Positions 2,455-64,000 of a stretch of 64,000 nucleotides of DNA are shown here, piece by piece. The notes beneath the pieces were generated by a model. That model worked only from the letters and a program-made list of their open reading frames with translations. It ran no database searches and was not told the DNA's origin. The position numbers and the translations under genes were made by a program. The stretch's first letter is position 1, and each line of letters opens with the position of its first letter. The DNA is from Tragulus kanchil (taxonomy: Eukaryota; Chordata; Mammalia; Artiodactyla; Tragulidae), in assembly GCA_022376925.1 (NCBI GenBank), contig JAIOJX010000032.1, forward strand, positions 172,137,979 through 172,201,978. Reading direction: 5' to 3'.

Positions 2455-4656
2455 CAAAGGCTTATGTAAGTTTTCTCTCTTACACGCATTTAAAAAGCAT
2501 GTTAAAACAATACAGAATGTCTACTGAAACCACATGAGACTGAAAAAGCAGGCAGAAGCTCTTCTTTCCACATATAACATCTCCTTGATGGGCCAAGGTC
2601 TTTGGCTACGTACGTCCCTTTAGAAAGGTCTGTTCTGTGTCTGGGGCTGTCTGATGACAAGTCATCCCACGCCACGTTTTAGTCAAATGGGGTTTGCAGA
2701 CTCTCCCCCCTTAGAAAGGGGTGCTGTTAAGATGGGGACAGTTCAGCAGGGTCCCAGTGAACTCAAGGACTGAGAGCATTAGAGGGCAACACGATAGTTC
2801 ATGTGTTCGTTGGTCCCCATGTCCAAGAATGCCCACCTCGTCATGACGCATTTCTTAAGCGTTTCTCCATCTTGAAGTCCTCAGACTTTAGAATAAAAGG
2901 TTGGAATGCTTTCTCCCCCCAAAGTTACTTCTAGGTCAGGAACTCTGTGTTTGTAGATCCTCCGACATTGAGAGCATCCTCCTCATTTCCTCCCACTCAC
3001 CCGCGTGTCTGTGTACAAACCCTGGTCGACCACTGATTGCGTGCTAACAGGGCCCTGGAGAAAGACTCTGTCTCCCTTGGGAGTTCTGTTATTTTATCAG
3101 TCTTTTCACACCAGCATTTAAATCATTTCAGTATTTACGATTTTCCTCTTTTAAAGATAAGGCTAGACCCTTGAGCAAGAAAGATAGTGTGAGACGGGGA
3201 GAGGACTAGCATTATTTTTACCAGGGGCTGTTTGTTTCAAGTGACAGCTGAAGCCTCTAACAAATGTTGGCTTATCTTCTGCTGCATTTCAGTGCCTCTA
3301 GGAGGTGGATTTACTGGTTCCCGGGCTTGTGCCACACCTTGGCTCCTGTGATGCAGCGACCATAGCCTGTTTCTTGGACAATTTCCATGTATTATCTGAT
3401 TTTTTTTTTTTTTTCCTGGATGTGCTTTTTAAATGCCATGCTTTGATTTGGAGCATGATCTCAGAAGCTTCCAGCGGTTGCCTGTTCTGCTCTTGGATCC
3501 ATTCCAAGTTGCTGAGCTTTCTGGGCAGAGGATTTCTATCCAGGTGGTGGAAAATCAAAGGCTTATGTAAGTTTTCTCTCTTACACGCATTTAAAAAGCA
3601 TGTTAAAACAATACAGAATGTCTACTGAAACCACATGAGACTGAAAAAGCAGGCAGAAGCTCTTCTTTCCACATATAACATCTCCTTGATGGGCCAAGGT
3701 CTTTGGCTACGTACGTCCCTTTAGAAAGGTCTGTTCTGTGTCTGGGGCTGTCTGATGACAAGTCATCCCACGCCACGTTTTAGTCAAATGGGGTTTGCAG
3801 ACTCTCCCCCCTTAGAAAGGGGTGCTGTTAAGATGGGGACAGTTCAGCAGGGTCCCAGTGAACTCAAGGACTGAGAGCATTAGAGGGCAACACGATAGTT
3901 CATGTGTTCGTTGGTCCCCATGTCCAAGAATGCCCACCTCGTCATGACGCATTTCTTAAGCGTTTCTCCATCTTGAAGTCCTCAGACTTTAGAATAAAAG
4001 GTTGGAATGCTTTCTCCCCCCAAAGTTACTTCTAGGTCAGGAACTCTGTGTTTGTAGATCCTCCGACATTGAGAGCATCCTCCTCATTTCCTCCCACTCA
4101 CCCGCGTGTCTGTGTACAAACCCTGGTCGACCACTGATTGCGTGCTAACAGGGCCCTGGAGAAAGACTCTGTCTCCCTTGGGAGTTCTGTTATTTTATCA
4201 GTCTTTTCACACCAGCATTTAAATCATTTCAGTATTTACGATTTTCCTCTTTTAAAGATAAGGCTAGACCCTTGAGCAAGAAAGATAGTGTGAGACGGGG
4301 AGAGGACTAGCATTATTTTTACCAGGGGCTGTTTGTTTCAAGTGACAGCTGAAGCCTCTAACAAATGTTGGCTTATCTTCTGCTGCATTTCAGTGCCTCT
4401 AGGAGGTGGATTTACTGGTTCCCGGGCTTGTGCCACACCTTGGCTCCTGTGATGCAGCGACCATAGCCTGTTTCTTGGACAATTTCCATGTATTATCTGA
4501 TTTTTTTTTTTTTTTCCTGGATGTGCTTTTTAAATGCCATGCTTTGATTTGGAGCATGATCTCAGAAGCTTCCAGCGGTTGCCTGTTCTGCTCTTGGATC
4601 CATTCCAAGTTGCTGAGCTTTCTGGGCAGAGGATTTCTATCCAGGTGGTGGAAAAT
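2455..4656. repeat. Tandem duplication 1 (about 1101-base unit)
   Basis: Copy 1 is 2455-3555 and copy 2 is 3556-4656; both begin 'caaaggcttatgtaag' and end 'caggtggtggaaaat'. The offset stays at 1101 bases from one end to the other. The unit holds no repeat family or gene I recognise; it includes a T-run at about 3400-3416, repeated at 4501-4517. The junction shares only the 6-base word 'caaagg'. It matches the other 17 duplications in length but not in sequence, and is probably an unmerged contig overlap. Confidence 0.95.
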
Positions 4657-4797
4657 GAGAACAGAACCTGTGAGGACCGGAGATGGATTATTCTGTGATG
4701 AACTGTAATCAATATCTGATGAACTTGAGCATGAGGAAAGATGAGCTAATGAGCTTTCAGGTTGTTCCTGAGGATCTTGGAAAACTACTTAGATGTA

Positions 4798-5004
4798 GGG
4801 CTTCTCCAATAGCTCAAACGGTAAGGAATCTGCCTGCAATGTGAGAGACCTGGGTTCGATCCTTGAGTCAGGAAAATCCCGTGGAGAAGAGCATGGCAAC
4901 CGACTCCGGTATTCCTGCCTGGCAAATTCCATGAACAGAGGAGCCTGGCGGGCTCCAGACCATGCGGTCACAGAGAGTCAGACACGACTGAGCGACAAAC
5001 ACTT
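4798..5004 (+). mobile_element. Bov-tA SINE
   Basis: A tRNA-like head with degenerate A box (about 4811-4830) and B box ('gggttcgatccttgagtc', about 4852) runs into the BovA body: 'gcatggcaaccgactccg', 'ttcctgcctgg', 'cagaggagcctgg' and the terminal 'cagacacgactgagcgac'. It is full length and plus strand. The internal promoter boxes are those of an RNA polymerase III SINE, not of a functional tRNA gene. Confidence 0.92.
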
Positions 5005-5157
5005 CCACTTTACTTTCACTCTGATGTGCCCCAACCGTGTCTTCTGACGGGCTTTTGTGTCAGCCCTGCATACTGAATGGCGCTCTCTTCCTGCCTTCAT
5101 CACGTCCGGTTGACATGACAAAATAGCATACACTGCGTGGCTTAAAAATGACCATTT

Positions 5158-5322
5158 AGGGACTCCACAGGTGGTGCAGTGGTTAAGACTTCACCCTCCA
5201 GTGCAGAAGGGGCAGACTTGATCCCTCGGGAGCTGGGACCCCACAGACCTTATGGCCAAAAAACCTAAACATAAAACAGATGCAGTATTGTCACAAATTC
5301 AATAAAGATTTTTAAAAAATGA
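5158..5322 (+). mobile_element. CHR-type tRNA-derived SINE
   Basis: It opens 'agggactccacaggtggtgc' followed by 'agtggttaagacttc', a B-box-like 'gacttgatccctcgggagct' and a tail 'ggccaaaaaacctaaacata'. This is the CHR-2-like layout of cetartiodactyl SINEs. The subfamily name is uncertain. Confidence 0.75.
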
Positions 5323-5329
5323 AAACCAG

Positions 5330-5640
5330 AAATGAACATTTGTGTCTTACGGTTCTTGAGGTTGAAGGTCTGAGATCACGGTGCAAGAGATGTGATGCCT
5401 AGAGAGGACCCAGTTCCTGGTTTGCAGACGGCCACCTTCTTGCTGTGTCCTCTCGTGATGGAGAGAGAGCTCTGGTCTTTTCATCCCACTTAGAAGGGTC
5501 CCCGTCCCATCTTGGAGGCTCAGCCCTCAAGACCTCATCTGATTCCCTCCTAAAGAGCCCACCTCCAGATACCATCCCACGGGGATTGTGTTTGGACGTT
5601 TGGATTTGGGGGATGCAAACGTTTGGTTTGTAGCATGTCC
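5330..5640 (-). mobile_element. MaLR-like LTR remnant, antisense
   Basis: Phrases such as 'cttacggttcttgaggttga', 'ccaccttcttgctgtgtcct', and 'gagcccacctccagatacca' match the antisense of a common mammalian LTR-type repeat. The right part, from 5418, is also in tandem duplication 2 and reappears at about 6522-6730. The family name is tentative. Confidence 0.45.
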
Positions 5641-7607
5641 TTTTCATCCCCTTTCCTCCTAACTTCACCAAGCACCTCTTCCTGCTTGGCTGCAGGCTGA
5701 GGCTTTTCATGTTGAGGAGACCTGGTTCCTGCCTTCCTACCAGACACATTCCATAGAGCCAGATGGTAAACCAATCCTCATGAGTCAGTGCTGCGGGGCT
5801 GAGCTGGAGGTGCGTGCCGGTTGCTTGTGGTCCCTCCTGGAGGCGTGGGATGAGCTCCTGCGTTCTCCGGAGAGCAGAGAAGTTACATCGAGTCTCAGCA
5901 GAATGTAGCCGTGGGAGAGGACACGGCTTGTTTAGGCGAATAAGGCTGACCTCTTTTGGGTCACGGAAACGTGGCGGCCAGTGCACCACAGGTCAGATGG
6001 AGCGTGCCCACATCAGGCCTTGAAAGCTGAACTAGGTGGTTTGGAGAGTATAAATTAGTGACAGAAAGAAATCTTCAAAATCTCTAAAATGTCAGCATTT
6101 TAAACACAATCCACACTTCTAAATAACCCATGGGACAGAAAAGATATCTTAGGGACAATCAAAGCAATTTTTGAGTTGAGTGAAAACCTGACCACAGTGC
6201 ATTATAATGAGTGAAATGAAGCTGAAACACTGATAGGGGGGAAGATGTATCACTTTAAATATTTATATTAGAAGGGAAGAAAAATCTGAAATCAGTTACT
6301 ATTCTAAACTAGAGGGAAAAAGAGCAAGTTACAGTCAAAATGAGTAGAAATAGATAATATGACAGATAATGCCAATGTTCTGTGTGCTCAGTTGTGTCTG
6401 CATCTCTGCGACCCCCTGGATCGCAGCCTGCCAGGCACCCTGTCCATGGGCTTTCCCAAGCAAGAATCCTGGAGTGGGTTGCCATTCCTTTCTCATGGAT
6501 CACGGGAAGTTGGCTGGCCTTTGGTTTGCAGACGGCCACCTTCTTGCTGTGTCCTCTCGTGATGGAGAGAGAGCTCTGGTCTTTTCATCCCACTTAGAAG
6601 GGTCCCCGTCCCATCTTGGAGGCTCAGCCCTCAAGACCTCATCTGATTCCCTCCTAAAGAGCCCACCTCCAGATACCATCCCACGGGATTGTGTTTGGAC
6701 GTTTGGATTTGGGGATGCAAACGTTTGGTTTGTAGCATGTCCTTTTCATCCCCTTTCCTCCTAACTTCACCAAGCACCTCTTCCTGCTTGGCTGCAGGCT
6801 GAGGCTTTTCATGTTGAGGAGACCTGGTTCCTGCCTTCCTACCAGACACATTCCATAGAGCCAGATGGTAAACCAATCCTCATGAGTCAGTGCTGCGGGG
6901 CTGAGCTGGAGGTGCGTGCCGGTTGCTTGTGGTCCCTCCTGGAGGCGTGGGATGAGCTCCTGCGTTCTCCGGAGAGCAGAGAAGTTACATCGAGTCTCAG
7001 CAGAATGTAGCCGTGGGAGAGGACACGGCTTGTTTAGGCGAATAAGGCTGACCTCTTTTGGGTCACGGAAACGTGGCGGCCAGTGCACCACAGGTCAGAT
7101 GGAGCGTGCCCACATCAGGCCTTGAAAGCTGAACTAGGTGGTTTGGAGAGTATAAATTAGTGACAGAAAGAAATCTTCAAAATCTCTAAAATGTCAGCAT
7201 TTTAAACACAATCCACACTTCTAAATAACCCATGGGACAGAAAAGATATCTTAGGGACAATTAAAGCAATTTTTTTGAGTTGAGTGAAAACCTGACCACA
7301 GTGCATTATAATGAGTGAAATGAAGCTGAAACACTGATAGGGGGGAAGATGTATCACTTTAAATATTTATATTAGAAGGGAAGAAAAATCTGAAATCAGT
7401 TACTATTCTAAACTAGAGGGAAAAAGAGCAAGTTACAGTCAAAATGAGTAGAAATAGATAATATGACAGATAATGCCAATGTTCTGTGTGCTCAGTTGTG
7501 TCTGCATCTCTGCGACCCCCTGGATCGCAGCCTGCCAGGCACCCCTGTCCATGGGCTTTCCCAAGCAAGAATCCTGGAGTGGGTTGCCATTCCTTTCTCA
7601 TGGATCA
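5418..7607. repeat. Tandem duplication 2 (about 1104-base unit)
   Basis: Copy 1 is 5418-6502 and copy 2 is 6522-7607, separated by about 19 bases that match neither flank (6503-6521). Both begin 'tggtttgcagacggccacct' and end within a Bov-tA at 'tctcatggatca'. Differences are mostly single-base changes in homopolymer runs: a G-run at 5580-5583 against 6682-6684, a G-run near 5609, a T-run near 6170 against 7269, and a C-run near 6440. Most lie near the left of copy 2 or the right of copy 1. Confidence 0.95.
6386..6502 (-). mobile_element. Bov-tA SINE, truncated at duplication junction
   Basis: The antisense BovA body ('tgtgctcagttgtgtctgca', 'gaatcctggagtgggttgcc') stops abruptly at 6502 where tandem duplication 2 turns over. 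The complete version is at 7487-7675. The truncation is a junction effect, not a biological 5' truncation. Confidence 0.88.
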
Positions 7608-7984: not shown

Positions 7985-9015
7985 AAAAGTTGAAGTATAG
8001 TTGATTTACAGTGTTGTGTTAATTTCTACTGCCCAGCAAAGTAACTCAGTTATACATGTATATACATTCTTTTTCATATCCCTTATGGTTTATCACAGGA
8101 TACTGACTGTAGTTCCCTGTACTATACAGTAGGACTTTGCTGTTTATCTGTTCTAAATATGGTGGTTTGTATCTGCTAATCCCAAACGCCCAATCCATCC
8201 CTCCCCTCCCCGACCCCCTCACCTTGGCAACCACAGGTCTGTTCTCTAGGTCTGTGAGTCGGTTTCAGCTTTATAGGTATGTTTTATAGATAGGTTTTAT
8301 AGGTCTGTGGGTCTCTTTGGGTTTTATAGGTAGACTCTTTTGTGTATTATTTTAGACTCTACCTATAAGTGACATCATATGGTATTTTTCTTTTTCTGAC
8401 TTAGTATGATAATCTCTTGAATCTGATGATCTTTTGAAAAGCAGAGACATCACTCTGCTGACAAAGGTCAGTATAGTCAAGGCCATGGCCTTCCCAGTGG
8501 TCACGTAGGTCGTGAGAGCTGGACTGTGAAGAAGGTGAGTGACAAAGTTTTTGTCTTTAAACTGTGGTGCTGGAGAAGACTCCTGAGAGTCCCTTGAACA
8601 GCAGGGAGATCCAACCAGTCACTCTCAAGGGAAACCAGCCCTGGGTAGTCCCTGGAGGGACTGACGCTGAAGCTCCAGGATTTTGGTCACCTGACGCAAA
8701 CAGCCGAGGCATTGGGAAAGTCGCTGATGCTGGGGAAGATGGAGGGCAGAAGAGGAGGGTGTCAGAGGATGAGATGGTTAGATGGCATCAGTGATGGACC
8801 TGAGCTTGGGCAAAGTTCGGGTGTGGTGAGGGCCAGGGAGGCCTGGCACGCTGCAGTCCATGAGGCTGCCAAGAGCTGGACATGACTGGGCTGCTGAACA
8901 ACAACAACAAATGGTAATCTTTAGTTCCTTCCATGCTTCTGAAAATGGCATAATTTCATTCTTTTTTGTGACTGAGTAATATTCCATTGTGTGTATGTAA
9001 AAATGGACACATATT
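7985..9015 (-). mobile_element. Ruminant L1 3' end, antisense, split by BovB
   Basis: 'ttgatttacagtgttgtgtt', 'gttccctgtactatacagta' and 'tgacttagtatgataatctc' are the antisense of the ruminant L1 3' region. The element resumes at about 8913 with 'tcattcttttttgtgactga' and 'gtaatattccattgtgtgta'. The gap is filled by a BovB tail (8436-8912), so BovB inserted into an existing L1. Confidence 0.8.
8436..8912 (+). mobile_element. BovB LINE 3' fragment
   Basis: It starts within the ORF2 C-terminus ('aaaagcagagacatcactct') and runs to the BovB 3' end ('gctggacatgactgggctgc'), followed by an (AAC)n-like tail at 8896-8912. It is inserted in an antisense L1. A plus frame of 76 codons at 8564-8794 is a remnant of the BovB ORF with frameshifts. 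Confidence 0.88.
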
Positions 9016-9203
9016 TCTTTTTTAATATTTTGTTTGCTTGACATGTTTCTGAAAGACAAAAATAGCCAACACTGATTTAATAAGAAATAAAACAACAAAA
9101 GTAACTCCATAGCTATTACTTTCATTGAATTTATAATAACACACCTTCCTGCAAGGATTCCAATTTAAACGGCCTCACAGGTGAATTATAGCAAATAGTT
9201 AAG

Positions 9204-9322
9204 TAATGGCAACCCATTCCGGTATTCCTGCCTGGAGAATCCCATGGACAGAGGAGCCTGGTGGACTAACAGTCCATGGAGTCACAAAGAGTTGGACGCG
9301 ACTGAAGCGACTTAGCAAGCCA
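9204..9322 (+). mobile_element. BovA SINE fragment
   Basis: Only the BovA body is present ('aatggcaacccattccggta' to 'ttggacgcgactgaagcgac'); the tRNA-like head is missing. It lies between two diverged copies of a 73-base L1 segment. Confidence 0.88.
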
Positions 9323-10071
9323 TCAATAATAGCACACTTTCCTGTAAAGATTCCAGTTCAGATAGCGTCACTAATGAATTATAGCAAGTATTTAAGTATT
9401 GATGTTAATCCTACACAAATTCTTTCAGAAAAACACAGGAAGATGGAAACACTTTTAAACTCATTTTGCAAAGTCATATTAGCTCAGTGCCAAGCCCAGA
9501 TGATGTCTTTGTAGGAAAATGACAGACCATGTCCCTCATATACTTAGAAGAAAGAACCCTTAATGAAATGAAATCAAATCTAACAATGCAATAAATTGAT
9601 AATACACTGTGATCAGTTGGGATTGCTCTAGAAATATAAGGTTGGTTTGACATTAAAAAAAATAATGTAATTTATCATATTCATAGGACAAAAGAGAAAA
9701 ACCATATGATCATATCAGTTGTTTCAGAAAAAGTATTTGACAAAATTCAGCACTTATTAATGAACTAGAAATAGTGGGGAGTTTCCTTAATCCTATGAAG
9801 AGCATTTTTGGAAAACCTAAGCTAGCATCATACTTAATGGTAAAGGACTGAATACTTTCCTCCTTAAACGAAGAAAGCAGAAAGATGTTCACTCTTTCTA
9901 CTATTTTATTCAACATTTTATCGTTGTCATACCCAATACAATAAGGGCCATATGGAAAAATGATAGGCATTCAGATAGAAAAAGACAACCATCTGTATTC
10001 ACAGGTGACTGACTGTATACGAAGAAAATCCTAAGGAAGCTGTCTTTAATCTCTGTGTCCTGGGCTTAGTT

Positions 10072-10205
10072 GATTCAGACCTGTTGAACTCTGTGCTGCC
10101 CTATGGACTGTAGCCCGCCAGGCTTCTCTGCCCTTGGGATTCTGCAGGCAAGAATACTGGAGTGGGTAGCCGTGCCCTTCTCCTGGGGATCTTCTCTGGA
10201 GATCT
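10072..10205 (-). mobile_element. Bov-tA SINE, partial
   Basis: Antisense BovA body ('ggactgtagcccgccaggct', 'aagaatactggagtgggtag') within the L1 ORF2 remnant; the head is truncated after 'ctcctggggatcttc'. Confidence 0.87.
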
Positions 10206-10807
10206 TCCCTATCTTTAAAGTTTACTAGAATTAATAAGTGCCCTTAGGAGGATTTTAGAATACCTATAGTATCCCTGTATACTGGTTGCTAATTTATAGT
10301 AGCTTAAGAAAAACTTGGAATAATCAGGGATAAATTGAAGAAAATATGCAAAGATCCAAATACTGAAAGTTACGATACATTTCTGAACAAAATTAAAGAA
10401 GAGGTGAGTAAATAGAGATCCTTTCTGTGGACTGGAAGACTCAGTAATATCAAGATGTCCATCCCTAGCGAGTCTGAGTTGTGGCTGAAAGTGACAGTTG
10501 ATTCTAAAACACATGTGGAGATTTAAAGGACTGAGGGTAGCTGGAGCGTTCTGATTGAGCCCAGCCGTGCGGGAGGGCTTCAGCTGCCAGAAGTTGAGCC
10601 CCGCGGTCAAGCTACATGGCTCAAGAGTGTAGTATCGGCAGAAGACATACAGGTCAGTGGAGCAGAAGAGAGTCCAGAAACAGGCGGTCAATTGATTCTT
10701 GATGAACGTGCCAGCTTTTGGTGAAAAGCTTCTCAGAAAATGTCGCTGAAACAACCAGCTGGCCATGGAACAATACAACACCAGGCTGCTGTCTCATGTT
10801 ATATTTT

Positions 10808-13235: not shown

Positions 13236-13865
13236 GTAACTATTTGAAGAGATAATAGCTGAAAACTTAGTTAGCATGGGAATAGAAATAGTCAACCAAG
13301 CACAGGAAGTGCAGAGAGACCCAGGCAGGATAGACCCGAGGAGGAACACATTGAGACACGGTAATCAAACTGACAAAAATTAAAGGCAAAGATAAAATAT
13401 TAAAAGCAACGTGGGGAAAACAACAAATAACATGCAAGGGAATTCCCCATAAGGTTGTCAGCTGATTTCTCAGCAGAACCCCTACAGGCCAGAAGGGCAC
13501 AGTGTGCTTAAAGCGATGAAAGGCGAGAACCAGAACCAAGAATCTTCTACCCAGCAGAGCTCTCCTTAAGATTTGAGAGAGAAATCAGAAGCTCTTCAGA
13601 CAAGCGAAAGTTAAGAGAATTGAGCACCGTCAAACCAGCGTCACAACAAACGCTAAAGGAACTTCTCTAGGCAGGAAACACGAGAGAAGGAAAAGACCTG
13701 CAAAAAATAAACCCCAGACAGCTAAGAAGATGGTAATAGGATCATCATATTGATAATTACCTTAAATGTGAGCATATTAAATGCACTAACCAGGAGACTT
13801 GGACTGGCTGGGTGGATAAAAATGTGCACATGTGTGGGCTTCCACCTACCACGTCACTCTGCACA
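13236..13865 (+). mobile_element. L1/HAL1-like ORF1 C-terminal part and ORF2 start, sense
   Basis: 13243 onward reads F-E-E-I-I-A-E-N-L in plus frame, the segment that normally follows 'VPEGE' in L1/HAL1 ORF1p. Next come 'aacccctacaggccagaagg' and 'tctacccagcagagctctcc', and at 13750-13815 an ORF2 start-like frame ('ITLNVSILNAL'). Stops and frameshifts are present. Part of it is repeated at 14462-14970 by tandem duplication 3. Confidence 0.65.
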
Positions 13866-14003
13866 CCCCCCAAACTGTATGTAATTATCTTATATAGCTG
13901 GGTTAATCGTGTTGCCATTATGGCTTGCAATTGTAATTATCTTTTAGTTTTTGTCTGGCTACTGACGGTGAAAACTGATACACATCTTTCACTACTGTGC
14001 CTA

Positions 14004-14208
14004 CATGCTCAGTTGCATCAGGCGTGTCCGACGCTCTGCGGCCTTGTGGACTGTAGCCCACCAGGCTCCTCTGCCTATGGGGCTCTCCGGAAGGAACACC
14101 GAAGTGGGTGCTATGCCCTCCTCCTCCTCTTTCCCGCCCAGGGACCCATCCCGCGTCTCCTGTGTCTGCTGCACTGGCAAGTGGGTTCTTTACCACCTGG
14201 GAAGCCCA
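14004..14208 (-). mobile_element. Bov-tA SINE (copy 1 of duplication 3)
   Basis: Antisense Bov-tA from 'catgctcagttgcatcaggc' to 'taccacctgggaagccc'. Several substitutions mark it as an older insert. Its twin at 15109-15313 is the same element repeated by the duplication. Confidence 0.9.
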
Positions 14209-15108
14209 CTGTTATGATTATGAAGCTGTTATTCATTTTAATGCCATTGTGCCATGATTGGTCAACAGAAAACAATAGTTTCTCTAAAACTGCCATTTAA
14301 TGGAAAAACCTGTAATCACTTTAAAATCCAGATGTACTTTAGAATTATCTTGGAATTTTCTGAAAACTACAAATGCCCAGGTTTTGTTTTTAATCAGATG
14401 CGATTCTGATGAGCAACCCGGTTTGGGATAAACAACAAATAAAAGAAAAATGCAAGGAATTCACGGTAATCAAACTGACAAAAATTAAAGGCAAAGATAA
14501 AATATTAAAAGCAACGTGGGGAAAACAACAAATAACATGCAAGGGAATTCCCCATAAGGTTGTCAGCTGATTTCTCAGCAGAACCCCTACAGGCCAGAAG
14601 GGCACAGTGTGCTTAAAGCGATGAAAGGCGAGAACCAGAACCAAGAATCTTCTACCCAGCAGAGCTCTCCTTAAGATTTGAGAGAGAAATCAGAAGCTCT
14701 TCAGACAAGCGAAAGTTAAGAGAATTGAGCACCGTCAAACCAGCGTCACAACAAACGCTAAAGGAACTTCTCTAGGCAGGAAACACGAGAGAAGGAAAAG
14801 ACCTGCAAAAAATAAACCCCAGACAGCTAAGAAGATGGTAATAGGATCATCATATTGATAATTACCTTAAATGTGAGCATATTAAATGCACTAACCAGGA
14901 GACTTGGACTGGCTGGGTGGATAAAAATGTGCACATGTGTGGGCTTCCACCTACCACGTCACTCTGCACACCCCCCAAACTGTATGTAATTATCTTATAT
15001 AGCTGGGTTAATCGTGTTGCCATTATGGCTTGCAATTGTAATTATCTTTTAGTTTTTGTCTGGCTACTGACGGTGAAAACTGATACACATCTTTCACTAC
15101 TGTGCCTA

Positions 15109-15313
15109 CATGCTCAGTTGCATCAGGCGTGTCCGACGCTCTGCGGCCTTGTGGACTGTAGCCCACCAGGCTCCTCTGCCTATGGGGCTCTCCGGAAGGA
15201 ACACCGAAGTGGGTGCTATGCCCTCCTCCTCCTCTTTCCCGCCCAGGGACCCATCCCGCGTCTCCTGTGTCTGCTGCACTGGCAAGTGGGTTCTTTACCA
15301 CCTGGGAAGCCCA
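15109..15313 (-). mobile_element. Bov-tA SINE (copy 2 of duplication 3)
   Basis: Identical in structure and flanks to 14004-14208, so it is the same insertion seen twice rather than an independent event. Confidence 0.9.
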
Positions 15314-15539
15314 CTGTTATGATTATGAAGCTGTTATTCATTTTAATGCCATTGTGCCATGATTGGTCAACAGAAAACAATAGTTTCTCTAAAACTGCCA
15401 TTTAATGGAAAAACCTGTAATCACTTTAAAATCCAGATGTACTTTAGAATTATCTTGGAATTTTCTGAAAACTACAAATGCCCAGGTTTTGTTTTTATCT
15501 CCAAAGCTCCAGATGCGATTCTGATGAGCAACCATGTTT

Positions 15540-16940
15540 AAAACCAATTGGGCTGTATGGTAATCTTTTATCTAGTTTGTTTTACTTTTTCTACTTCACG
15601 TTCAGTGACCCCATTTCATTCAGTTGATAGTTTCCAATTTCTTTGTCTCATTTTTCTGTTGCTCTTTCTCAAGCCTCTATCAAATGTAGTAGAAAAGCTT
15701 TTGTATGCATACATGTATGCATAAGTACTGTATATGATATATATATTTTAGAAAATTTATGAATTTTTGCCTAGCTAAAAAATTTATAGCATTTTGGTTT
15801 CACTTGTTTAAGTATGAATAGAATGCTAGATTTCTAATTTATATTCACTCAAAACTTTGATGTAGTTCCATTTATTCTAGCACCTAATATTACTGCTAGA
15901 AGTCTAGAAAGCTTATTATCTTAGTGATTAAAAAATTTTTTTGAATGAGGCTTGAAACTTCTAATCCAAGTCTGGGAATATAAAGAAATACTATGTTAAA
16001 AAACAAACAAACAGGAAATTAACATGTGATACAATATTATTAATTAAAGTACAGATTTTATTCAAATTTCACAAAATTTTATGCTAGTGACCATTATTTG
16101 TTTTCATACCTTATTTAAGATTCCGTGTTGTATTTCGCTGCATTGAGCAGCTTCAAATGCATGCATGCAACAAATTCTGATAAATTCTCATTTTTATTCT
16201 GTTACAAATATTTTCTACTTTTTCCTGTTATGGACTCTTAGATAAACCCATCATTTAAAAGGGGACATTTAATTTACAAACACATGGGGTTTTAAAAATA
16301 CCTTCGATATTAATTTCTCATTTAAATGCTTTCTTCCCTGTAATAAGCCTCTATGTTTTTTCAGTCTTTTAACTTGACTGAGGCTTTCAGTGACTAAGTC
16401 ATCAATGATCTCTCTTGATAAATTTCACATTGCACTTGAAAATATGTGGCTTATTTTAAAATATCTTTTGATAGTGATTTCTAATGTAATTCCACAGCCA
16501 GAGAACAAATTTATGATTTCAGTACCTTTAGACCACGACATTTTTGCACCTTGTTTTGCATCTCTGGTGTCTCACGGTTTATAATCTGTGGGAACCTGAA
16601 TAGAATGTGTATCCTGCTGTTGTGTGAAAATTGTATAATCTTAGCTATGTTGAATTGGTTCACAGTGATTCTCAGGTCTACTATATCCTCCTACTTTTCT
16701 ATTCATTTCTATTGATTTTTGAAAGTTTTGATATTGAAACTCCAACTAAAACTCTTAATTTATCTGCTTAAAAAGTAATTGTAATATATAGTGGAACTAT
16801 ATGTAACTTTGTTCTGTATTTTGCCAGCCTCCTGTAAATGTATGATCATACTTTCATAATTTAAAAAATAAGAAAAAAAATAAGTACACCAGATTGGATT
16901 AATAGGAAATCAGCTTACAGAAGAGGAGGTTAAGAAGCTC
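15540..16940 (-). mobile_element. Old AT-rich L1, antisense (ORF2 region)
   Basis: 'gaatgtgtatcctgctgttg', 'ttctcaggtctactatatcc' and 'gatattgaaactccaactaa' correspond to the antisense of an old L1 ORF2 region, where human L1M reads 'gtatattctgcagttgttgg'. The left part (15540-16030) is AT-rich and less certain; it includes a perfect 20-base palindrome at 15704-15723. Confidence 0.55.
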
Positions 16941-18882: not shown

Positions 18883-18997
18883 AACCACGCATTAGATGTG
18901 GAAGAACAAAGATTAAAAATGACAGATTTCTGTGAGAATGATGTGAGAAGGGAAATATCTTTATTTATTTATTTTAATTGGCATATAATTGGATTAG

Positions 18998-31434: not shown

Positions 31435-31449
31435 CTTTGTGGGAGAAGG

Positions 31450-51460: not shown

Positions 51461-51795
51461 AAAGGATCCCAAATACTTGTACCCAACATGTCTGAAGAAT
51501 AAAGGAACATAAGTCATGAAAGATAGAAAAGAAAAATGATAATTTAAGAAATTTTTCTGGCAATAAAAAGGAGACTTGAGGGAACATTGTATCCCAGGGA
51601 AATTAGTACAAAGGTCACCACTAAGGCATTCCTGATTAAAGTTATTAAATTTCGAAGATGAGGGAATCAAGGAAAAATAGGTCACCTAGGAGGGGAGACC
51701 CATCTGTCTTTCTTCAGTCATCTCCCACCCAGAAGAGACAGGAGGAATGCCGGTGACTGCCAGAAATACATTTTACACCTAACCAAAGTGTCACA

Positions 51796-51993
51796 TGCTA
51801 GTGGTAAGGAAGCTACCTTCAAGAGTAGGAGACATAAGAGACATGAGTTCAATCCCTGGGTCAGGAAGGTCCCCTGGAGGAGGACATGGCAACCCAGTCC
51901 AGAATTCTTACCTGGAGAATCCCATGGACAGAGGAGCCTGGTCGGGTACAGTCCACGGGGTCGCAAAGAGTTGGACACGACTGAGCACACACG
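51796..51993 (+). mobile_element. Bov-tA SINE
   Basis: Plus copy: 'gctagtggtaaggaagctac', 'gagttcaatccctgggtcag', 'ggcaacccagtccagaattc', 'tggacacgactgagcacaca'. Repeated at 52899-53096. Confidence 0.92.
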
Positions 51994-52898
51994 TGTGCCA
52001 AGTGTCCCTCAGACACAAAGAGGACAGGCCCTGGTGAATAGGTAAGAACTCGAGATGTGTGGTTTATTTGAGCCTTCCTTGAAAGAAGCTACTAGAGGCA
52101 GAATCTTAGCTAATCGAGGTCCTGAAAGAAGAGAACTGGCTCTGGGTGTTGCGTCCATTTAACTCTAGGGTTAGGTCATAAGGAGGTGATGAAAATATTC
52201 CGGCTGAGAGAGAAAGTGAATAGTGTGGGAGAGAGGAGTGTCTGGAGCAATGCCCTAGGGGGATGTGGAGAGATGGTTCTGGAACACAGGTGGAAAGGTT
52301 TCAGGTTGGGACAGGAGAAGTTCATCTCTGGAAATAGGAACACAGGTTGAGCGTGTGGGAGCAGGTGCTGGCAGGTGGTGGACGTGAGCATGGAAGGAGA
52401 GCTATTTGGCCTCTGGCCACTTCTCCGTGAAGGGTGGTGGAAACGATGAGCATGAGGAGCATCCCAAAGCAGGGGTTTGGAGGAAGGACTGAGAAGGAAA
52501 TACACAGGATGAGATGGAAGTAAACAAGCCATTTAAGAGGATTTGAGAATGGGAAGGCAGTAAAAAGGATCCCAAATACTTGTACCCAACATGTCTGAAG
52601 AATAAAGGAACATAAGTCATGAAAGATAGAAAAGAAAAATGATAATTTAAGAAATTTTTCTGGCAATAAAAAGGAGACTTGAGGGAACATTGTATCCCAG
52701 GGAAATTAGTACAAAGGTCACCACTAAGGCATTCCTGATTAAAGTTATTAAATTTCGAAGATGAGGGAATCAAGGAAAAATAGGTCACCTAGGAGGGGAG
52801 ACCCATCTGTCTTTCTTCAGTCATCTCCCACCCAGAAGAGACAGGAGGAATGCCGGTGACTGCCAGAAATACATTTTACACCTAACCAAAGTGTCACA

Positions 52899-53096
52899 TG
52901 CTAGTGGTAAGGAAGCTACCTTCAAGAGTAGGAGACATAAGAGACATGAGTTCAATCCCTGGGTCAGGAAGGTCCCCTGGAGGAGGACATGGCAACCCAG
53001 TCCAGAATTCTTACCTGGAGAATCCCATGGACAGAGGAGCCTGGTCGGGTACAGTCCACGGGGTCGCAAAGAGTTGGACACGACTGAGCACACACG
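52899..53096 (+). mobile_element. Bov-tA SINE (copy 2 of duplication 14)
   Basis: Same insertion as 51796-51993. Confidence 0.92.
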
Positions 53097-53190
53097 TGTG
53101 CCAAGTGTCCCTCAGACACAAAGAGGACAGGCCCTGGTGAATAGGTAAGAACTCGAGATGTGTGGTTTATTTGAGCCTTCCTTGAAAGAA

Positions 53191-55363
53191 GCTACTAGAG
53201 GCAGAATCTTAGCTAATCGAGGTCCTGAAAGAAGAGAACTGGCTCTGGGTGTTGCGTCCATTTAACTCTAGGGTTAGGTCATAAGGAGGTGATGAAAATA
53301 TTCCGGCTGAGAGAGAAAGTGAATAGTGTGGGAGAGTGGAGTGTCTGGAGCAATGCCCTAGGGGGATGTGGAGAGATGGTTCTGGAACACAGGTGGAAAG
53401 GTTTCAGGTTGGGACAGGAGAAGTTCATCTCTGGAAATAGGAACACAGGTTGAGCGTGTGGGAGCAGGTGCTGGCAGGTGGTGGACGTGAGCATGGAAGG
53501 AGAGCTATTTGGCCTCTGGCCACTTCTCCGTGAAGTGTCGGCTCAGAGTGAGAATGAAAAAAGTGTCAGGATTTGAGGAGAGAGGAGAAGATGGGAAACA
53601 GTCATTTGGGTCATGGGATGTAATGTATTATTTGGTTCATTAATTGAATTATTTCCAAAATGATACCTTTCCATTCTAGAATTGTCGTGTTGGCTTGGTC
53701 ATTCCTTATATAGAGCCTTGTTGACTTATCTTTATAGAGTTTGTCCTTTTGTTAACATATTCTGCCTGCCTATCCTATTCCTCTTTCTGCTAATTCTCGT
53801 GTCTGGAGTCCTCAGGGTCTAAATCTTTTTGTGGTGTCCACTGACGGCTGTGTGGGGCCACCGCCTCTGTGCACGCTGATCTTCATGAACTCCTATTAGC
53901 TTTTTGCTTTGTGGAATTCTGGTGATCCAGACAGAGAAGGGTTTCTCTCTGAGAGGACTTGCAGCCCACTCTCTACCCTCGGGAGGCCTGGACCCTGTGG
54001 GGGGCCCCAGGCTGAGTCCGGTGCTGTGGAGCCCTGTCCTGAGGCAGCCTTGATGTTGGTGCCTTTGGGGGGCCTCACGTAGCCCCCACTTTCTTTAGCT
54101 CCAAGCTTTCACCTGTTCTACCTCAGGCTGGCTCCTCTCTTATTGTAGGGGGTAGATGCTGATCTTAAGAGAATTCACCTACTTCCTATGAGTCCAGCAA
54201 GGCACCCAAAGGGCTTCCGCCTCTTTTTAATCCTTGCAGATCCAGGATCTGGTCTCTTCCCAGGGGGTCCGGGGCAGCTTCTTTTTTCCCAAAGGCTACT
54301 AGAGGCAGAATCTTAGCTAATCGAGGTCCTGAAGAGAACTGGCTCTGGGTGTTGCGTCCATTTAACTCTAGGGTTAGGTCATAAGGAGGTGATGAAAATA
54401 TTCCGGCTGAGAGAGAAAGTGAATAGTGTGGGAGAGTGGAGTGTCTGGAGCAATGCCCTAGGGGGATGTGGAGAGATGGTTCTGGAACACAGGTGGAAAG
54501 GTTTCAGGTTGGGACAGGAGAAGTTCATCTCTGGAAATAGGAACACAGGTTGAGCGTGTGGGAGCAGGTGCTGGCAGGTGGTGGACGTGAGCATGGAAGG
54601 AGAGCTATTTGGCCTCTGGCCACTTCTCCGTGAAGTGTCGGCTCAGAGTGAGAATGAAAAAAGTGTCAGGATTTGAGGAGAGAGGAGAAGATGGGAAACA
54701 GTCATTTGGGTCATGGGATGTAATGTATTATTTGGTTCATTAATTGAATTATTTCCAAAATGATACCTTTCCATTCTAGAATTGTCGTGTTGGCTTGGTC
54801 ATTCCTTATATAGAGCCTTGTTGACTTATCTTTATAGAGTTTGTCCTTTTGTTAACATATTCTGCCTGCCTATCCTATTCCTCTTTCTGCTAATTCTCGT
54901 GTCTGGAGTCCTCAGGGTCTAAATCTTTTTGTGGTGTCCACTGACGGCTGTGTGGGGCCACCGCCTCTGTGCACGCTGATCTTCATGAACTCCTATTAGC
55001 TTTTTGCTTTGTGGAATTCTGGTGATCCAGACAGAGAAGGGTTTCTCTCTGAGAGGACTTGCAGCCCACTCTCTACCCTCGGGAGGCCTGGACCCTGTGG
55101 GGGGCCCCAGGCTGAGTCCGGTGCTGTGGAGCCCTGTCCTGAGGCAGCCTTGATGTTGGTGCCTTTGGGGGGCCTCACGTAGCCCCCACTTTCTTTAGCT
55201 CCAAGCTTTCACCTGTTCTACCTCAGGCTGGCTCCTCTCTTATTGTAGGGGGTAGATGCTGGTCTTAAGAGAATTCACCTACTTCCTATGAGTCCAGCAA
55301 GGCACCCAAAGGGCTTCCGCCTCTTTTTAATCCTTGCAGATCCAGGATCTGGTCTCTTCCCAG
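53191..55363. repeat. Tandem duplication 15 (about 1100-base unit)
   Basis: Copy 1 is 53191-54263 and copy 2 is 54295-55363, with a filler at 54264-54294. Both begin 'gctactagaggcagaatctt' and end 'ctggtctcttcccag'. Copy 2 lacks four bases near its left end ('tcctgaagagaact' against 'tcctgaaagaagagaact'). The unit's first 345 bases also occur at 52088-52432. It holds no gene or repeat that I recognise. Confidence 0.95.
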
Positions 55364-55641: not shown

Positions 55642-57300
55642 ACAACTATTTATTATCTACCAGAGTAAATAAAATAAATGATCGAAGTAGGTGGCTGAGA
55701 GGAGTGGTACACATTGGTCTGTGATGAGAACACGAAGTCATGTTTTTGGGACTCTGCTCCGAGCAGGCCGAGTTGGGAATTAATGCCCACAGCCCCTCGT
55801 ACGCACCACACCGTGTTCTTTACAGACTGCCTTGCACCTGATGCCATTTCCTAGGACGTGCCTTTTCGGGTCCTGCCTTGTCTAGGGCGCCCACTTCTTA
55901 AATGCTTGGCCTAGCTCGCCTGCTCTGGGAGCTCTCCTGCTCCAACCATGAGCTCCCAGGCTGGCCTTCCTCTTCTCCCTCATCTCCTCCTCGTAGCAAA
56001 GCAGCCAGGAAACTGCAGGTGCACAGCTTTCTGTTGGGATGAATGAACTAGGGGATCTAGAGGGCCTCTGGTTGCTCTTCGGTTTGCCCATCTAAGACAC
56101 TTTTTTTTTTTTTTTTTTTGGCATTTATGAACAAATTGCCTACAAAAGCAAAGCACCAAAGCCAGAGAGGCATGCATTCCAGAACTTGCCCGGCCCAGGA
56201 AGCCTGAGTTCCTGGCACCCAGATGGCGTTGGCAGGTGCTGTGAGCCAGATCCCCACGTGGGCGCCTCTGGCGATGGTGATCTGGGGCCTGATGGGAATG
56301 TGGGGGAGAGAGAGGAATGCTCATTTAGGAATGAGTTGTGGTTATGGGGGCAAGGTTGGACAGTGTTGCACTCAGCCTTTCCGGAACCGGCTGAGGGACT
56401 GTGTCCAAGAGAGGAAATGCTGCAAGAGTCAGCTGAGTTCTGGTCAAAACCTTGAGCCCATTGACGTGGCCTTTTATCTCCTTTTGGGCAGCTCAGGGAG
56501 CAAACGAGGACTTGGTAGGGTCAAGTTTATGTCTCCTTGTAGATCTTCCTTACTGTGAAGGCTGACACTGGCCCAGCCTTTCCTGCAGCTTCCCCTGTGG
56601 GTACCGAGAAGTCCAGAAATGACCCTGACCATCTGAGATGGCCCTCCTGAGTCAGAAGGTGGGGGATGCGCAGTGCTTATCTGAGGGTTCAAGTGGGTTG
56701 CTTCTCTGTCCCCATTTTCCAAGCAGCAGGAGGGGGACCTTTGGGGGTAGCTACAGGTCAGGATTGCTGGCTCCTACACCTTTAACATCAGCTGCGTCTG
56801 CATCTTCTGGAAGGAGGCTTTGTCCCTGCCCTCGTTTGAGACCTAGGTCCACCCATGTGCTTGTAGAATTAGCACACTTCTGGGACCAGGTACAGTGCTG
56901 TGGTGACCTGAGACTGTGGGACCTACTGGTCCACAGGGTCCCGGGCGTGACCCACAGAGGGTGGGACGCACACCAGGCTGACGATGCAAGCCAGGCACAG
57001 TCCCAGATCTGACCTTGATCCGAGGAAGAGGTCCCGGGGCATTACCTTTTTGAAAATAAGTATGAGCAAACTTTTGAGCCCAATCTCCTCAAACTGATAG
57101 CCATTAGCTGGGCAATCAGGGGTGACTGGAACAGGGGGAGAGGAAGCTTGTACGAGTCTGAGTCCTGTGGAGCAGGCAAGGCTGGGTCTTCTGGGAGCCC
57201 CGGAGGCCAGGCTTGGCCTAGGAGCAGCTCTGAGACCCTGGTGTCCTGCTCAGAGGCTGTTTCTCAGTCTTCAAGATGGGCGTGGCTTCACTGAGTTCAC
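55642..57300. other. Unassigned non-coding DNA
   Basis: A T-run lies at 56101-56120. Open frames, the largest 124 codons at 56638-57012 on the plus strand, show no domain. The MIR-like phrase 'gtttctcagtcttcaagatg' at 57260-57280 is too short to call. Confidence 0.4.
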
Positions 57301-58822
57301 AGAAGTTACATGTAATTTTTAAATTGTTTTTTAGCTTTATTGAAATATAACTGTTTCAATAAACTGTACCTATTTAAAGTAGACAACGTCATGTTCATGA
57401 GACTGTTGTTCAGTCGCTAAGTGTGTCTGACTCTTTGCGACCCCAAGGTCTGCTGCACGCCAGGCTCCTCTGTCCGCCACTGTCTCCCAGAGACAGTGTC
57501 TCCCACTGTCTCTCAGATTCATTTCTATTTAATCTGTGATGCCATCCAACCATCTCATCCTCTGCTGCCCTCTTCTCCTTTTGCCTTCGATCTTTCTCAG
57601 CTGGGATCCTTTCCAATGAGTCATCTCTTCACATCAGGTAGCCAAAGCATTGGAGCTTCAGCTTCAGCCCTTCTAATGAGTATTCAGGATTGATTTCCTT
57701 TAGGATTGAACGAGCTGCCGGATTCCCTTTCCAATGAGTCATCTGAGATGGCCCTCCTGAGTCAGAAGGTGGGGATGCAGTGCTTATCTGAGGGTTCAAG
57801 TGGGTTGCTTCTCTGTCCCCATTTTCCAAGCAGCAGGAGGGGGACCTTTGGGGGTAGCTACAGGTCAGGATTGCTGGCTCCTACACCTTTAACATCAGCT
57901 GCGTCTGCATCTTCTGGAAGGAGGCTTTGTCCCTGCCCTCGTTTGAGACCTAGGTCCACCCATGTGCTTGTAGAATTAGCACACTTCTGGGACCAGGTAC
58001 AGTGCTGTGGTGACCTGAGACTGTGGGACCTACTGGTCCACAGGGTCCCGGGCGTGACCCACAGAGGGTGGGACGCACACCAGGCTGACGATGCAAGCCA
58101 GGCACAGTCCCAGATCTGACCTTGATCCGAGGAAGAGGTCCCGGGGCATTACCTTTTTGAAAATAAGTATGAGCAAACTTTTGAGCCCAATCTCCTCAAA
58201 CTGATAGCCATTAGCTGGGCAATCAGGGGTGACTGGAACAGGGGGAGAGGAAGCTTGTACGAGTCTGAGTCCTGTGGAGCAGGCAAGGCTGGGTCTTCTG
58301 GGAGCCCCGGAGGCCAGGCTTGGCCTAGGAGCAGCTCTGAGACCCTGGTGTCCTGCTCAGAGGCTGTTTCTCAGTCTTCAAGATGGGCGTGGCTTCACTG
58401 AGTTCACAGAAGTTACATGTAATTTTTAAATTGTTTTTCAGCTTTATTGAAATATAACTGTTTCAATAAACTGTACCTATTTAAAGTAGACAACGTCATG
58501 TTCATGAGACTGTTGTTCAGTCGCTAAGTGTGTCTGACTCTTTGCGACCCCAAGGTCTGCTGCACGCCAGGCTCCTCTGTCCGCCACTGTCTCCCAGAGA
58601 CAGTGTCTCCCACTGTCTCTCAGATTCATTTCTATTTAATCTGTGATGCCATCCAACCATCTCATCCTCTGCTGCCCTCTTCTCCTTTTGCCTTCGATCT
58701 TTCTCAGCTGCGGGATCCTTTCCAATGAGTCATCTCTTCACATCAGGTAGCCAAAGCATTGGAGCTTCAGCTTCAGCCCTTCTAATGAGTATTCAGGATT
58801 GATTTCCTTTAGGATTGAACGA
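56630..58822. repeat. Tandem duplication 16 (about 1107-base unit)
   Basis: Copy 1 is 56630-57713 and copy 2 is 57740-58822. Both begin 'catctgagatggccctcctg' and end 'ctttaggattgaacga'. The left end of copy 2 is shortened ('gtggggatgcagtgc' against 'gtgggggatgcgcagtgc'); near the right end of copy 1 'cagctgggatcc' differs from 'cagctgcgggatcc'. The 26-base filler (57714-57739) looks like a damaged repeat of 'cctttccaatgagtcatc' (57607). Confidence 0.95.
57399..57713 (-). mobile_element. BovB LINE 3' end, antisense (copy 1 of duplication 16)
   Basis: 'gttgttcagtcgctaagtgt', 'gatgccatccaaccatctca', 'gagtcatctcttcacatcag' and 'agtattcaggattgatttcc' are antisense BovB. The element is cut at 57713 by the duplication junction; its fuller version is 58505-58880. 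Confidence 0.9.
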
Positions 58823-59944: not shown

Positions 59945-60837
59945 CTTTTGCGGTAGCTAGAACCTCCAATATTGCACTGAATAAAAATGCTGAGAACAGA
60001 CATCCTTATCTTGTTCCTGAGCTCGGGAACGTGTAGTCTTCTACCCTTAGTGATGTCAGCTGCAGCCTTCTTGTAGATGCTTTTCTTCGGGCTGAGAAAC
60101 TTCCTCTAATATTAATTTGCTGACAGTATTTATAAGGAATGAGGTATTAGATTTTGTGAAATGAGTCTCTTATGTTTATTGATATGATCATCTTTTTTTA
60201 CTCCTTTATTTTGATAATGTGATGAATTATAGTATTTGATTTTCAAGTGTTAAGTCAACCTTGCCTTCTTTCATAAGCCCCATTTGGCCACAATGTAGTA
60301 TCCTTTTTACCTATTGTTAGATTATATATGCTCAAGTTTTGTTAAGAATATTTACATCTATGTTCATGAGGGATATTTCTCTGTAGTTTCATGTAGTGTT
60401 TCTGGTTTTGCTATCAGGGTAATGCTGACCCTGTACAAGTTAGAAAATGTCCCTTCCTCTTCCGTTTTTTGGAAGTATTTGTGTAGAAGTGATTTTGTTT
60501 CTTTCTTAAGTGGTGATTGAACTCTAGTTAAGCCATCTGGGCCTGGGATGGCTCTCTGTGAGAAGGATTTTAAGTACAAATTCAACTTCCTTAATAGGTA
60601 TAAAGCTAACCCATTTAGATTGCCTATTTATTCTTGAGTGAACTCTGGGAGTTTGTATCTTCTGATATTTTCCCTTTTCATTAAGTTATTGAATTTATAT
60701 AAAGTTGCTCATAATATTCTCTCAGTATTATTATTTTTGCCTATAGGATTTGTAGTGGTGTTGCTCCTCTCCCTTATTTCTGATATTGGTAATTTCTTTT
60801 TTCTCTCTCTTTCTCCAGATCAGTTTGGCTAAAGGTA

Positions 60838-61045
60838 AGGGCCTCTCTGGTGGCTCAGATGGTAAAGAATCCACCTGCAGTGCAGGAAACCGATGTTCGA
60901 TCCCTGGGTTGGCAAGATCCCCCAGAGAAGGGAATGGGCATCCACTCCAGTATTCTTGCCTGGAGAATTCCATGAACAAAAGGGCCTTGCAGGCTACAGT
61001 TCATGGTGCTACAAAGAATCAGACACAACTGAACGACTTTCACTT
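60838..61045 (+). mobile_element. Bov-tA SINE
   Basis: Complete plus copy: 'agggcctctctggtggctca', 'gatgttcgatccctgggttg', 'gcatccactccagtattctt', 'atcagacacaactgaacgac'. It interrupts the L1 motif 'tttggctaaag' / 'tatcaatttg'. Repeated at 61933-62140. Confidence 0.93.
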
Positions 61046-61300
61046 TATCAATTTGATTGATCTTTTCAAATACTTAGCTTTGGGCTTCATTGTTTTATAT
61101 CATTTTTCCTTTCCCATTTCCTGATATTTATCTTACTTTTTCTCATTTCTTAAACTGGAAGCTCAAATTATTGTTCCAAGAATATTTTTTTTAAGTTATA
61201 TGTTTAGTTCTATAAATTTCACCTTAAGTACCGTTTTAACTTCATCTTACACATTTCAACATACCGCTTTTGCTTTCATTCATATCAAAGTATATTCTAG

Positions 61301-61520
61301 TGCATGCTAAGTCACTTCAGTCTTGTCTGACTCTTTGTGACCCTATCGACTGTAGCCTGCCAGGCTCCTCTGTCCATGGGGTTCTCCGAGCAAGAATGCT
61401 GGAGTGGGCTGCCATTTCCTCCTCCAGGGGATCTTCCTGACCTGGGGATTGAACCTGAGTCTCCTGCGGCTCCTGCACTGCAGGCAGATTCTTTGCCACT
61501 GAGCTACCGGGGAGGCTCTA
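61301..61520 (-). mobile_element. Bov-tA SINE
   Basis: Complete antisense copy: 'gcatgctaagtcacttcagt', 'gactgtagcctgccaggctc', 'agaatgctggagtgggctgc', 'ctgagctaccggggaggctc'. It carries the insertion 'cggctcctg' in the head. Repeated at 62396-62615 and, in part, at 63639-63752. Confidence 0.93.
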
Positions 61521-61932
61521 TATTTTAATATTCCTTGTCATTTCTTCTTTGACCCATGTGCTACTTAGAAGAATATTATTTAGTGTCCAAATATTGGGGA
61601 ATTTCTAGATTTCTGTCAGGTATTGATTCCTAGTTAATTTCATGGTAGGAAATTGCATTATTTGAAGTTTACAAATTCAACTTCCTTAATAGGTATAAAG
61701 CTAACCCATTTAGATTGCCTATTTATTCTTGAGTGAACTCTGGGAGTTTGTATCTTCTGATATTTTCCCTTTTCATTAAGTTATTGAATTTATATAAAGT
61801 TGCTCATAATATTCTCTCAGTATTATTATTTTTGCCTATAGGATTTGTAGTGGTGTTGCTCCTCTCCCTTATTTCTGATATTGGTAATTTCTTTTTTCTC
61901 TCTCTTTCTCCAGATCAGTTTGGCTAAAGGTA

Positions 61933-62140
61933 AGGGCCTCTCTGGTGGCTCAGATGGTAAAGAATCCACCTGCAGTGCAGGAAACCGATGTTTGATCCCT
62001 GGGTTGGCAAGATCCCCCAGAGAAGGGAATGGGCATCCACTCCAGTATTCTTGCCTGGAGAATTCCATGAACAAAAGGGCCTTGCAGGCTACAGTTCATG
62101 GTGCTACAAAGAATCAGACACAACTGAACGACTTTCACTT
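61933..62140 (+). mobile_element. Bov-tA SINE (copy 2 of duplication 17)
   Basis: Same insertion as 60838-61045. Confidence 0.93.
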
Positions 62141-62395
62141 TATCAATTTGATTGATCTTTTCAAATACTTAGCTTTGGGCTTCATTGTTTTATATCATTT
62201 TTCCTTTCCCATTTCCTGATATTTATCTTACTTTTTCTCATTTCTTAAACTGGAAGCTCAAATTATTGTTCCAAGAATATTTTTTTTAAGTTATATGTTT
62301 AGTTCTATAAATTTCACCTTAAGTACCGTTTTAACTTCATCTTACACATTTCAACATACCGCTTTTGCTTTCATTCATATCAAAGTATATTCTAG

Positions 62396-62615
62396 TGCAT
62401 GCTAAGTCACTTCAGTCTTGTCTGACTCTTTGTGACCCTATCGACTGTAGCCTGCCAGGCTCCTCTGTCCATGGGGTTCTCCGAGCAAGAATGCTGGAGT
62501 GGGCTGCCATTTCCTCCTCCAGGGGATCTTCCTGACCTGGGGATTGAACCTGAGTCTCCTGCGGCTCCTGCACTGCAGGCAGATTCTTTGCCACTGAGCT
62601 ACCGGGGAGGCTCTA
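62396..62615 (-). mobile_element. Bov-tA SINE (copy 2 of duplication 17)
   Basis: Same insertion as 61301-61520. Confidence 0.93.
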
Positions 62616-62774
62616 TATTTTAATATTCCTTGTCATTTCTTCTTTGACCCATGTGCTACTTAGAAGAATATTATTTAGTGTCCAAATATTGGGGAATTTC
62701 TAGATTTCTGTCAGGTATTGATTCCTAGTTAATTTCATGGTGGCCAGGAAACATAACTTGCATTATTTGAATTC

Positions 62775-62860
62775 TTGTAAATTTACTTATTTTACTTTTG
62801 TTTTTATTTATTTTATTTTATTGTTTACTTTATTTTATTTTTACTTATTTTACTTTAATT
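62775..62860. repeat. AT-rich simple-sequence tract
   Basis: An irregular (TTTTA)n-like tract. It appears again at 63913-64000 through tandem duplication 18. Confidence 0.85.
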
Positions 62861-62861
62861 T

Positions 62862-62998
62862 TTCTGGAGCTCATGTGGCCAGAGCCGGTGCTCTGCAATG
62901 AGAGAGGCCACTGCGATGGGAGGCCCACACAGGCCAAAGAAGAAAGATGGATAAATGAAAGACCAATAGAAGTGGCCAAAAAAAAAAAAAAAAGGCAA
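62862..62998 (+). mobile_element. CHR-type SINE, 3' part
   Basis: 'agccggtgctctgcaatgag', 'aggccactgcgatgggaggc', 'cacacaggccaaagaagaaa' and an A-run tail (62979-62993). The tRNA-like head is missing. Confidence 0.82.
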
Positions 62999-63002
62999 AA
63001 CA

Positions 63003-63638
63003 CCCAATGTTACTGGAGTATAATTGATTCACAAAATTGTGTTAGTTTCAGGTATATAGCAAAGTGATTCAGTTGTACATATACATATGTTCATTCTTTT
63101 TCCATTTTTTTTTCTATAAAGGAATACCAAGCAGAATATCGAGTTCCCTGTGCTATATAGTAGGTCTATTGATTATCTGCCTTATATACAGTAGTGTATT
63201 TCTGTTAATCCCAACCTCCTGATTTATCACTCCCCTCCACATTTCCTCTTTGGTAACCATAAATTCATTTTCAATATCTGTAAGTCTGTTTATGTTTTGT
63301 ATATGAATTCATTTGTATCATTTTTAAGTTAAATTCCACAGAGGAGTGATGTCATATGATATTTGTAGTTCTCTAACTTATTTCACTTAGTATGATAAGC
63401 TCTAGGTCCATCTATATTGCTGCAAATGTCGTTATTTTATTCGTTTTCATGGCTGAGTCCTTATTCCATTGCATATGCATACTGCATCTTCTTTATCTCC
63501 TCCTCTTTCGCTGGACGTTTAAGTTGCTTCCCTTCCATGGCTGTTGTAAACAGCGCTGCATAGAATTCTGTGGTGAATATGGCATGTGTCTTTCAGTTTG
63601 GGTTTTCCTGGATATATGCCCATAGCAGGGATTCTAGA
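63003..63638 (-). mobile_element. Ruminant L1 3' end, antisense
   Basis: 'ctggagtataattgattcac', 'gttccctgtgctatatagta', 'cacttagtatgataagctct', 'tcatggctgagtccttattc' and 'ggctgttgtaaacagcgctg' follow the antisense L1 3' region in order, with less divergence than the old L1 to its left. It ends at the junction of tandem duplication 18. Confidence 0.85.
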
Positions 63639-63752
63639 ATGCTGGAGTGGGCTGCCATTTCCTCCTCCAGGAGCCTGGGGATTGAACCTGAGTCTCCTGC
63701 GGCTCCTGCACTGCAGGCAGATTCTTTGCCACTGAGCTACCGGGGAGGCTCT
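63639..63752 (-). mobile_element. Bov-tA SINE, partial (third copy)
   Basis: Head half of the antisense Bov-tA at 62396-62615, starting mid-element because of tandem duplication 18. Confidence 0.9.
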
Positions 63753-64000
63753 ATATTTTAATATTCCTTGTCATTTCTTCTTTGACCCATGTGCTACTTA
63801 GAAGAATATTATTTAGTGTCCAAATATTGGGGAATTTCTAGATTTCTGTCAGGTATTGATTCCTAGTTAATTTCATGGTGGCCAGGAAACATAACTTGCA
63901 TTATTTGAATTCTTGTAAATTTACTTATTTTACTTTTGTTTTTATTTATTTTATTTTATTGTTTACTTTATTTTATTTTTACTTATTTTACTTTAATTTT

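Follow-up and report, generated by a model that had tools for sequence, protein, structure and literature searches.

Head-to-tail duplications of about 1.1 kb recurring in the Tragulus kanchil assembly GCA_022376925.1: a very likely case of untrimmed overlaps between consensus pieces

Introduction

Two described systems come closest to the duplications analyzed here, which were followed from a stretch of 64,000 nucleotides (C2:172137979-172201978, hereafter the window). The first is known in the literature of the Vertebrate Genomes Project as homotype false duplication. Adjacent, near-identical copies derived from unmerged overlaps, and not from biology, are the trait which it appears to share with the present case. 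In contrast to it, the duplications reported here recur every few kb, have a near-constant length and show no gap characters between the copies in the window, where N characters are absent altogether.

The second system is the long-read assembler wtdbg2 with its consensus step, wtpoa-cns. In wtdbg2, neighboring units share a node, overlap between nodes is allowed up to about a quarter, the minimum node distance is set at about 768 raw bases and overlaps are normally merged in the consensus step. The present duplications resemble what such a layout would leave behind, with overlaps slightly longer than 1 kb, a smallest step below the length of one unit and errors at the ends of pieces. They differ in that overlaps which are normally merged there are unmerged in the present assembly. 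According to the account of a user, the graph points of wtdbg2 are 1024-bp read segments (PMC7506008), and a passage in another source describes contigs output as overlapping read sequences, the consensus being made by wtpoa-cns (PMC9915519). In a cursory literature search for wtdbg2 along with false or tandem duplication and for wtdbg-based ruminant assemblies, we recognized no paper describing such a failure. As detailed below, comparison of the sequences leads us to consider it very likely that the duplications are an assembly artefact, consisting of untrimmed overlaps of consensus pieces, and not a real feature of the genome.

Duplicated Units in the Window and Its Flanks

Self-comparison of the window displays the pairs directly. 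Exact 24-mer self-matches delineate 18 main head-to-tail pairs with near-identical copies, and all 18 pairs of near-constant offset announced in an earlier note were thus recovered, at offsets of 1074-1162. Additional short triple copies are found at offsets of 2203-2243, since neighboring units slightly overlap. The units, given as copy 1 / copy 2 in window coordinates, are the following:

1-673: copy 2 of a 19th pair, copy 1 being outside the window on its left side, at about -1500 to -412
2455-3555 / 3556-4656: pair 1, identical and abutting
5418-6502 / 6522-7607: pair 2
13357-14418 / 14462-15533: pair 3, bases missing near the end of copy 1
15998-17121 / 17141-18253: pair 4, bases missing near the start of copy 2
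18571-19686 / 19685-20799: pair 5
23914-25050 / 25047-26180: pair 6
27975-29064 / 29063-30144: pair 7, bases missing near the start of copy 2
31435-32515 / 32509-33593: pair 8, junction overlap of 7 bases (32509-32515)
38612-39775 / 39774-40937: pair 9
41859-42965 / 42961-44064: pair 10, end overlapping pair 11 (short triple copy)
43838-44981 / 44980-46123: pair 11, identical
46517-47655 / 47648-48786: pair 12
49274-50347 / 50365-51442: pair 13
51364-52432 / 52468-53535: pair 14, end overlapping pair 15, giving a triple copy
53191-54263 / 54295-55363: pair 15
56630-57713 / 57740-58822: pair 16
60575-61666 / 61670-62771: pair 17, end overlapping pair 18, giving a triple copy
62488-63624 / 63636 to about 64764: pair 18, copy 2 running past the end of the window

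The pattern is not confined to the window and crosses both of its edges (1-673 on the left and to about 64764 on the right). In an 84-kb tract composed of the window with 10 kb of left flank and 10 kb of right flank, the 19th pair occupies 8500-9588 / 9585-10673 (tract coordinates) with 0 differences. This tract contains 22 plus-strand self-matches of at least 200 bases and at least 97% identity, 21 at offsets of 1074-1163 and one at 2207, the latter being a triple copy. Three weaker self-matches (106-111 bases, 78-94% identity) lie at other offsets between 900 and 1400. The second copy represents 24.4 of 84.0 kb (29%), in good agreement with the share of near a third estimated previously.

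A satellite or repeat family was considered and rejected, the units being unrelated and the strong plus-strand self-matches, triple copy aside, all falling in one offset range; matches due to chance or to an ordinary repeat family would be expected at many different offsets.

Length, Identity and Polarity of the Copies

In total, 66 pairs were found, of which 53 that are complete and abutting were kept; nine touching the end of a stretch were excluded, as were four with non-abutting matches (L007 4555, L023 1898 and two in L014 broken by masked N). Although their sequences are unrelated, the 53 pairs have offsets of only 1063-1194 (median 1110, mean 1119, sd 33). Unit length showed no significant relation to GC content or compression ratio, and the rise predicted with homopolymer content was not significant either (rho 0.22, p 0.12).

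The two copies of the 53 pairs are 99.2% identical overall and 99.71% identical once 100 columns at either end are set aside, the middles of the units containing 140 differences in 48,364 columns (0.29%). Some pairs are identical and others are not, and the differences are not spread evenly but concentrate at the ends of the units. Their distribution is polar. Counted over the first 100 columns, the middle and the last 100 columns, copy 1 has 3, 24 and 65 gap events, and copy 2 has 40, 14 and 5 (Fisher p 2e-21). A looser alignment, which ran beyond the unit ends, gave 30, 32 and 122 for copy 1 and 91, 21 and 53 for copy 2, a polarity of the same direction and less sharp. Losses in copy 1 thus concentrate toward its end, those in copy 2 toward its start. 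A consensus is usually worst at the ends of its pieces. With one piece closing on copy 1 and the following piece opening with copy 2, losses of both kinds would fall at piece ends. A biological duplication offers no reason for such a direction.

Retention of both alleles of each segment side by side, i.e., haplotype (heterotype) false duplication, could account for the divergence of the unit middles, which is within reach of allelic differences. It does not predict a length of about 1.1 kb in every pair, a floor in the spacing of the units (see below) or polar end differences, and four of the 53 complete pairs show no difference whatsoever between copies. We therefore regard it as very improbable.

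Spacing and Junctions of the Units

Once the second copies are collapsed, the distances between successive unit starts range from 723 to 6835 over 40 spacings, four of the initial 44, including three below 700, having been removed as they derived from units cut by the start of a stretch. None of these 40 spacings is below 700, compared with 9.6 expected under random placement with the same mean, and neighboring units in this set overlap by at most about a third.

Spacing also bears on gap filling, in which sequences of fixed length, about 1 kb, bordering a gap on either side would have been inserted along with the filling and so doubled. By our reasoning, such a step would likewise predict head-to-tail copies throughout the assembly, a near-constant length and errors at the edges of the fill. 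It further predicts two duplications per gap and hence an alternation of short and long spacings, which is not seen: the 84-kb tract provides 21 spacings, with a lag-1 correlation of 0.06 (P 0.71 by permutation for a correlation this low). In addition, flanks cut from a draft would have a constant length, yet the offsets vary over 1063-1194, and a gap would be required every few kb. Gap filling accordingly keeps an outside chance.

Examination of the four boundaries of the units revealed no base preference or motif at any of them. At the 26 clean junctions, with copies that adjoin or overlap, the shared sequence spans 0-10 bases, and 17 of these junctions share at least 2 bases, compared with 17% expected (p 7e-8, for a null from which real duplications are excluded; a null still containing them gives P 0.04 for the mean shared length). 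The remaining 27 junctions, with 2-67 bases between exact boundaries, are not scorable. This sharing would fit a stitcher accepting a tiny end overlap and would also fit microhomology-mediated duplication. The excess of shared bases there may be a clue to how joins were picked during stitching.

Junction sharing is the point in favor of genuine tandem duplications of about 1.1 kb, joined by microhomology and generated genome-wide by an undescribed process. Microhomology is expected of some duplication mechanisms only, and it is found here; biological tandem duplication would also be expected to give non-polar differences and a length varying with mechanism or locus, and the pairs display polar differences and a near-constant length. 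Moreover, most of the sampled stretches would require one event per 2.5 kb or so of collapsed sequence, the boundaries carry no sequence signal, and the copies, 99.7% identical in their middles, have lost bases chiefly where copy 1 ends and copy 2 begins. To our knowledge, no process produces a single length on unrelated sequence. We do not think that junction microhomology rescues a biological reading, given the density of the pairs and the polarity of the errors, and genuine duplication appears to us extremely improbable. The same extreme improbability attaches to its most specific form, a genome-wide burst of microhomology-joined tandem duplications of nearly fixed length (about 1.1 kb) in one ruminant lineage, with a chromatin or replication unit perhaps setting the length.

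Recurrence in Other Sampled Stretches

The assembly comprises 3.167 Gb in 32 contigs, 16 of which exceed 70 Mb when C32 is counted (about 171 Mb, by subtraction). The same kind of pair was found in all 17 further ten-kb stretches, 13 of them on C2 (the two window flanks among these) and four on C1, C3, C5 and C15 (one per contig), as well as in two of four six-kb stretches (one pair each on C4 and C10). Only two of these 21 stretches lack a clear pair: L021 (C7:30000001-30006000, 6 kb), in which no pair was found, and L023 (C20:100001-106000, on a 251-kb contig), where only a weak match of 287 bases, left uncounted, was detected. Among the sampled contigs, pairs are therefore present on C1, C2, C3, C4, C5, C10 and C15. 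Since their density and uniformity are so high, the duplications belong to the assembly and not to a locus.

In 19 stretches, the second copy makes up 27.4% of 150,250 positions, an estimate which omits the window and its two flanks (L003 and L004), skips the first 1250 bases of each stretch and draws 11 of its 19 stretches from the contig of the window. Subtracting this share would reduce the assembly from 3.167 Gb to 2.30 Gb. Ruminant genomes are about 2.6-2.7 Gb. The collapsed estimate falls below this size, which counts against the artefact account.

Runs of N occur in two of the sampled stretches, at 915-977, 2013-2075, 2607-3233 and 8886-9560 in L014 and at 7054-7117 in L003. The 63-base run of L014 recurs in the two copies of one pair and so may represent masking after assembly rather than a gap.

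A Possible Origin in the Assembler Layout

The earlier note had proposed that short contigs were joined without trimming their overlaps. Recurrence across the sampled assembly, motif-free boundaries and the polarity of the differences between copies all support untrimmed overlaps. As for the joined objects, layout units of one assembler are perhaps a better description than short contigs, because a length of about 1 kb seems to set both the unit length and the minimum spacing.

A mechanism can be proposed on this basis. A long-read assembler would put its contigs together from consensus pieces in series, adjacent pieces sharing one overlap which would be fixed in read coordinates at about 1 kb. 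At many joins, this overlap would be left unmerged and would stand in the contig two times, first closing piece A and then opening piece B. The tool might be wtdbg2 or a predecessor with its consensus step, in which nodes correspond to 1024 bases of raw read and adjacent layout units share a node. With reads that on balance drop bases, as nanopore reads do, 1024 raw bases would translate into about 1.06-1.19 kb of consensus. Recurrence in the sampled stretches, the length and spacing statistics and the polar end errors are observed directly; which tool and what kind of reads were used, and why the stitching failed, is inferred. The units exceed 1024 by 4-17%, and the node reading needs a net base loss of 4-14% in the reads, a loss for which the homopolymer trend given above provides no significant sign. 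The spacing floor of 723 compares with 768 raw bases, or about 830 when scaled by the median unit, and four of the 40 spacings are below 830. Overall, we lean slightly toward an origin in a layout of the wtdbg2 type.

Under the reading as untrimmed overlaps, the 1.1-kb blocks almost certainly carry no biological significance. Their consequences for users of the assembly could nonetheless be considerable. If a share of 27% holds throughout, about 0.87 Gb of false sequence would be present in a chromosome-scale assembly, with 1) false exon duplications, 2) broken gene models and 3) wrong spacing. The signature itself, a near-constant offset of just over 1 kb combined with polar errors at piece ends, provides a cheap screen for other assemblies.

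Other Content of the Window

Apart from the duplications, the window contains SINE fragments with 3-15 occurrences each when up to 2 substitutions are allowed, which we take to be typical of ruminants; the source is thus probably a ruminant with few chromosomes. A search for RNA families in the window gave 0 matches at gathering score, and the 196 open frames of at least 90 aa in the window, inspected by eye only, led to no gene being identified. ARAGORN made two tRNA calls on the + strand, at 18610-18686 and 19724-19800, with the anticodon left undetermined by the program. These calls lie in the two copies of pair 5 and probably correspond to a tRNA-derived SINE, counted twice through the duplication.
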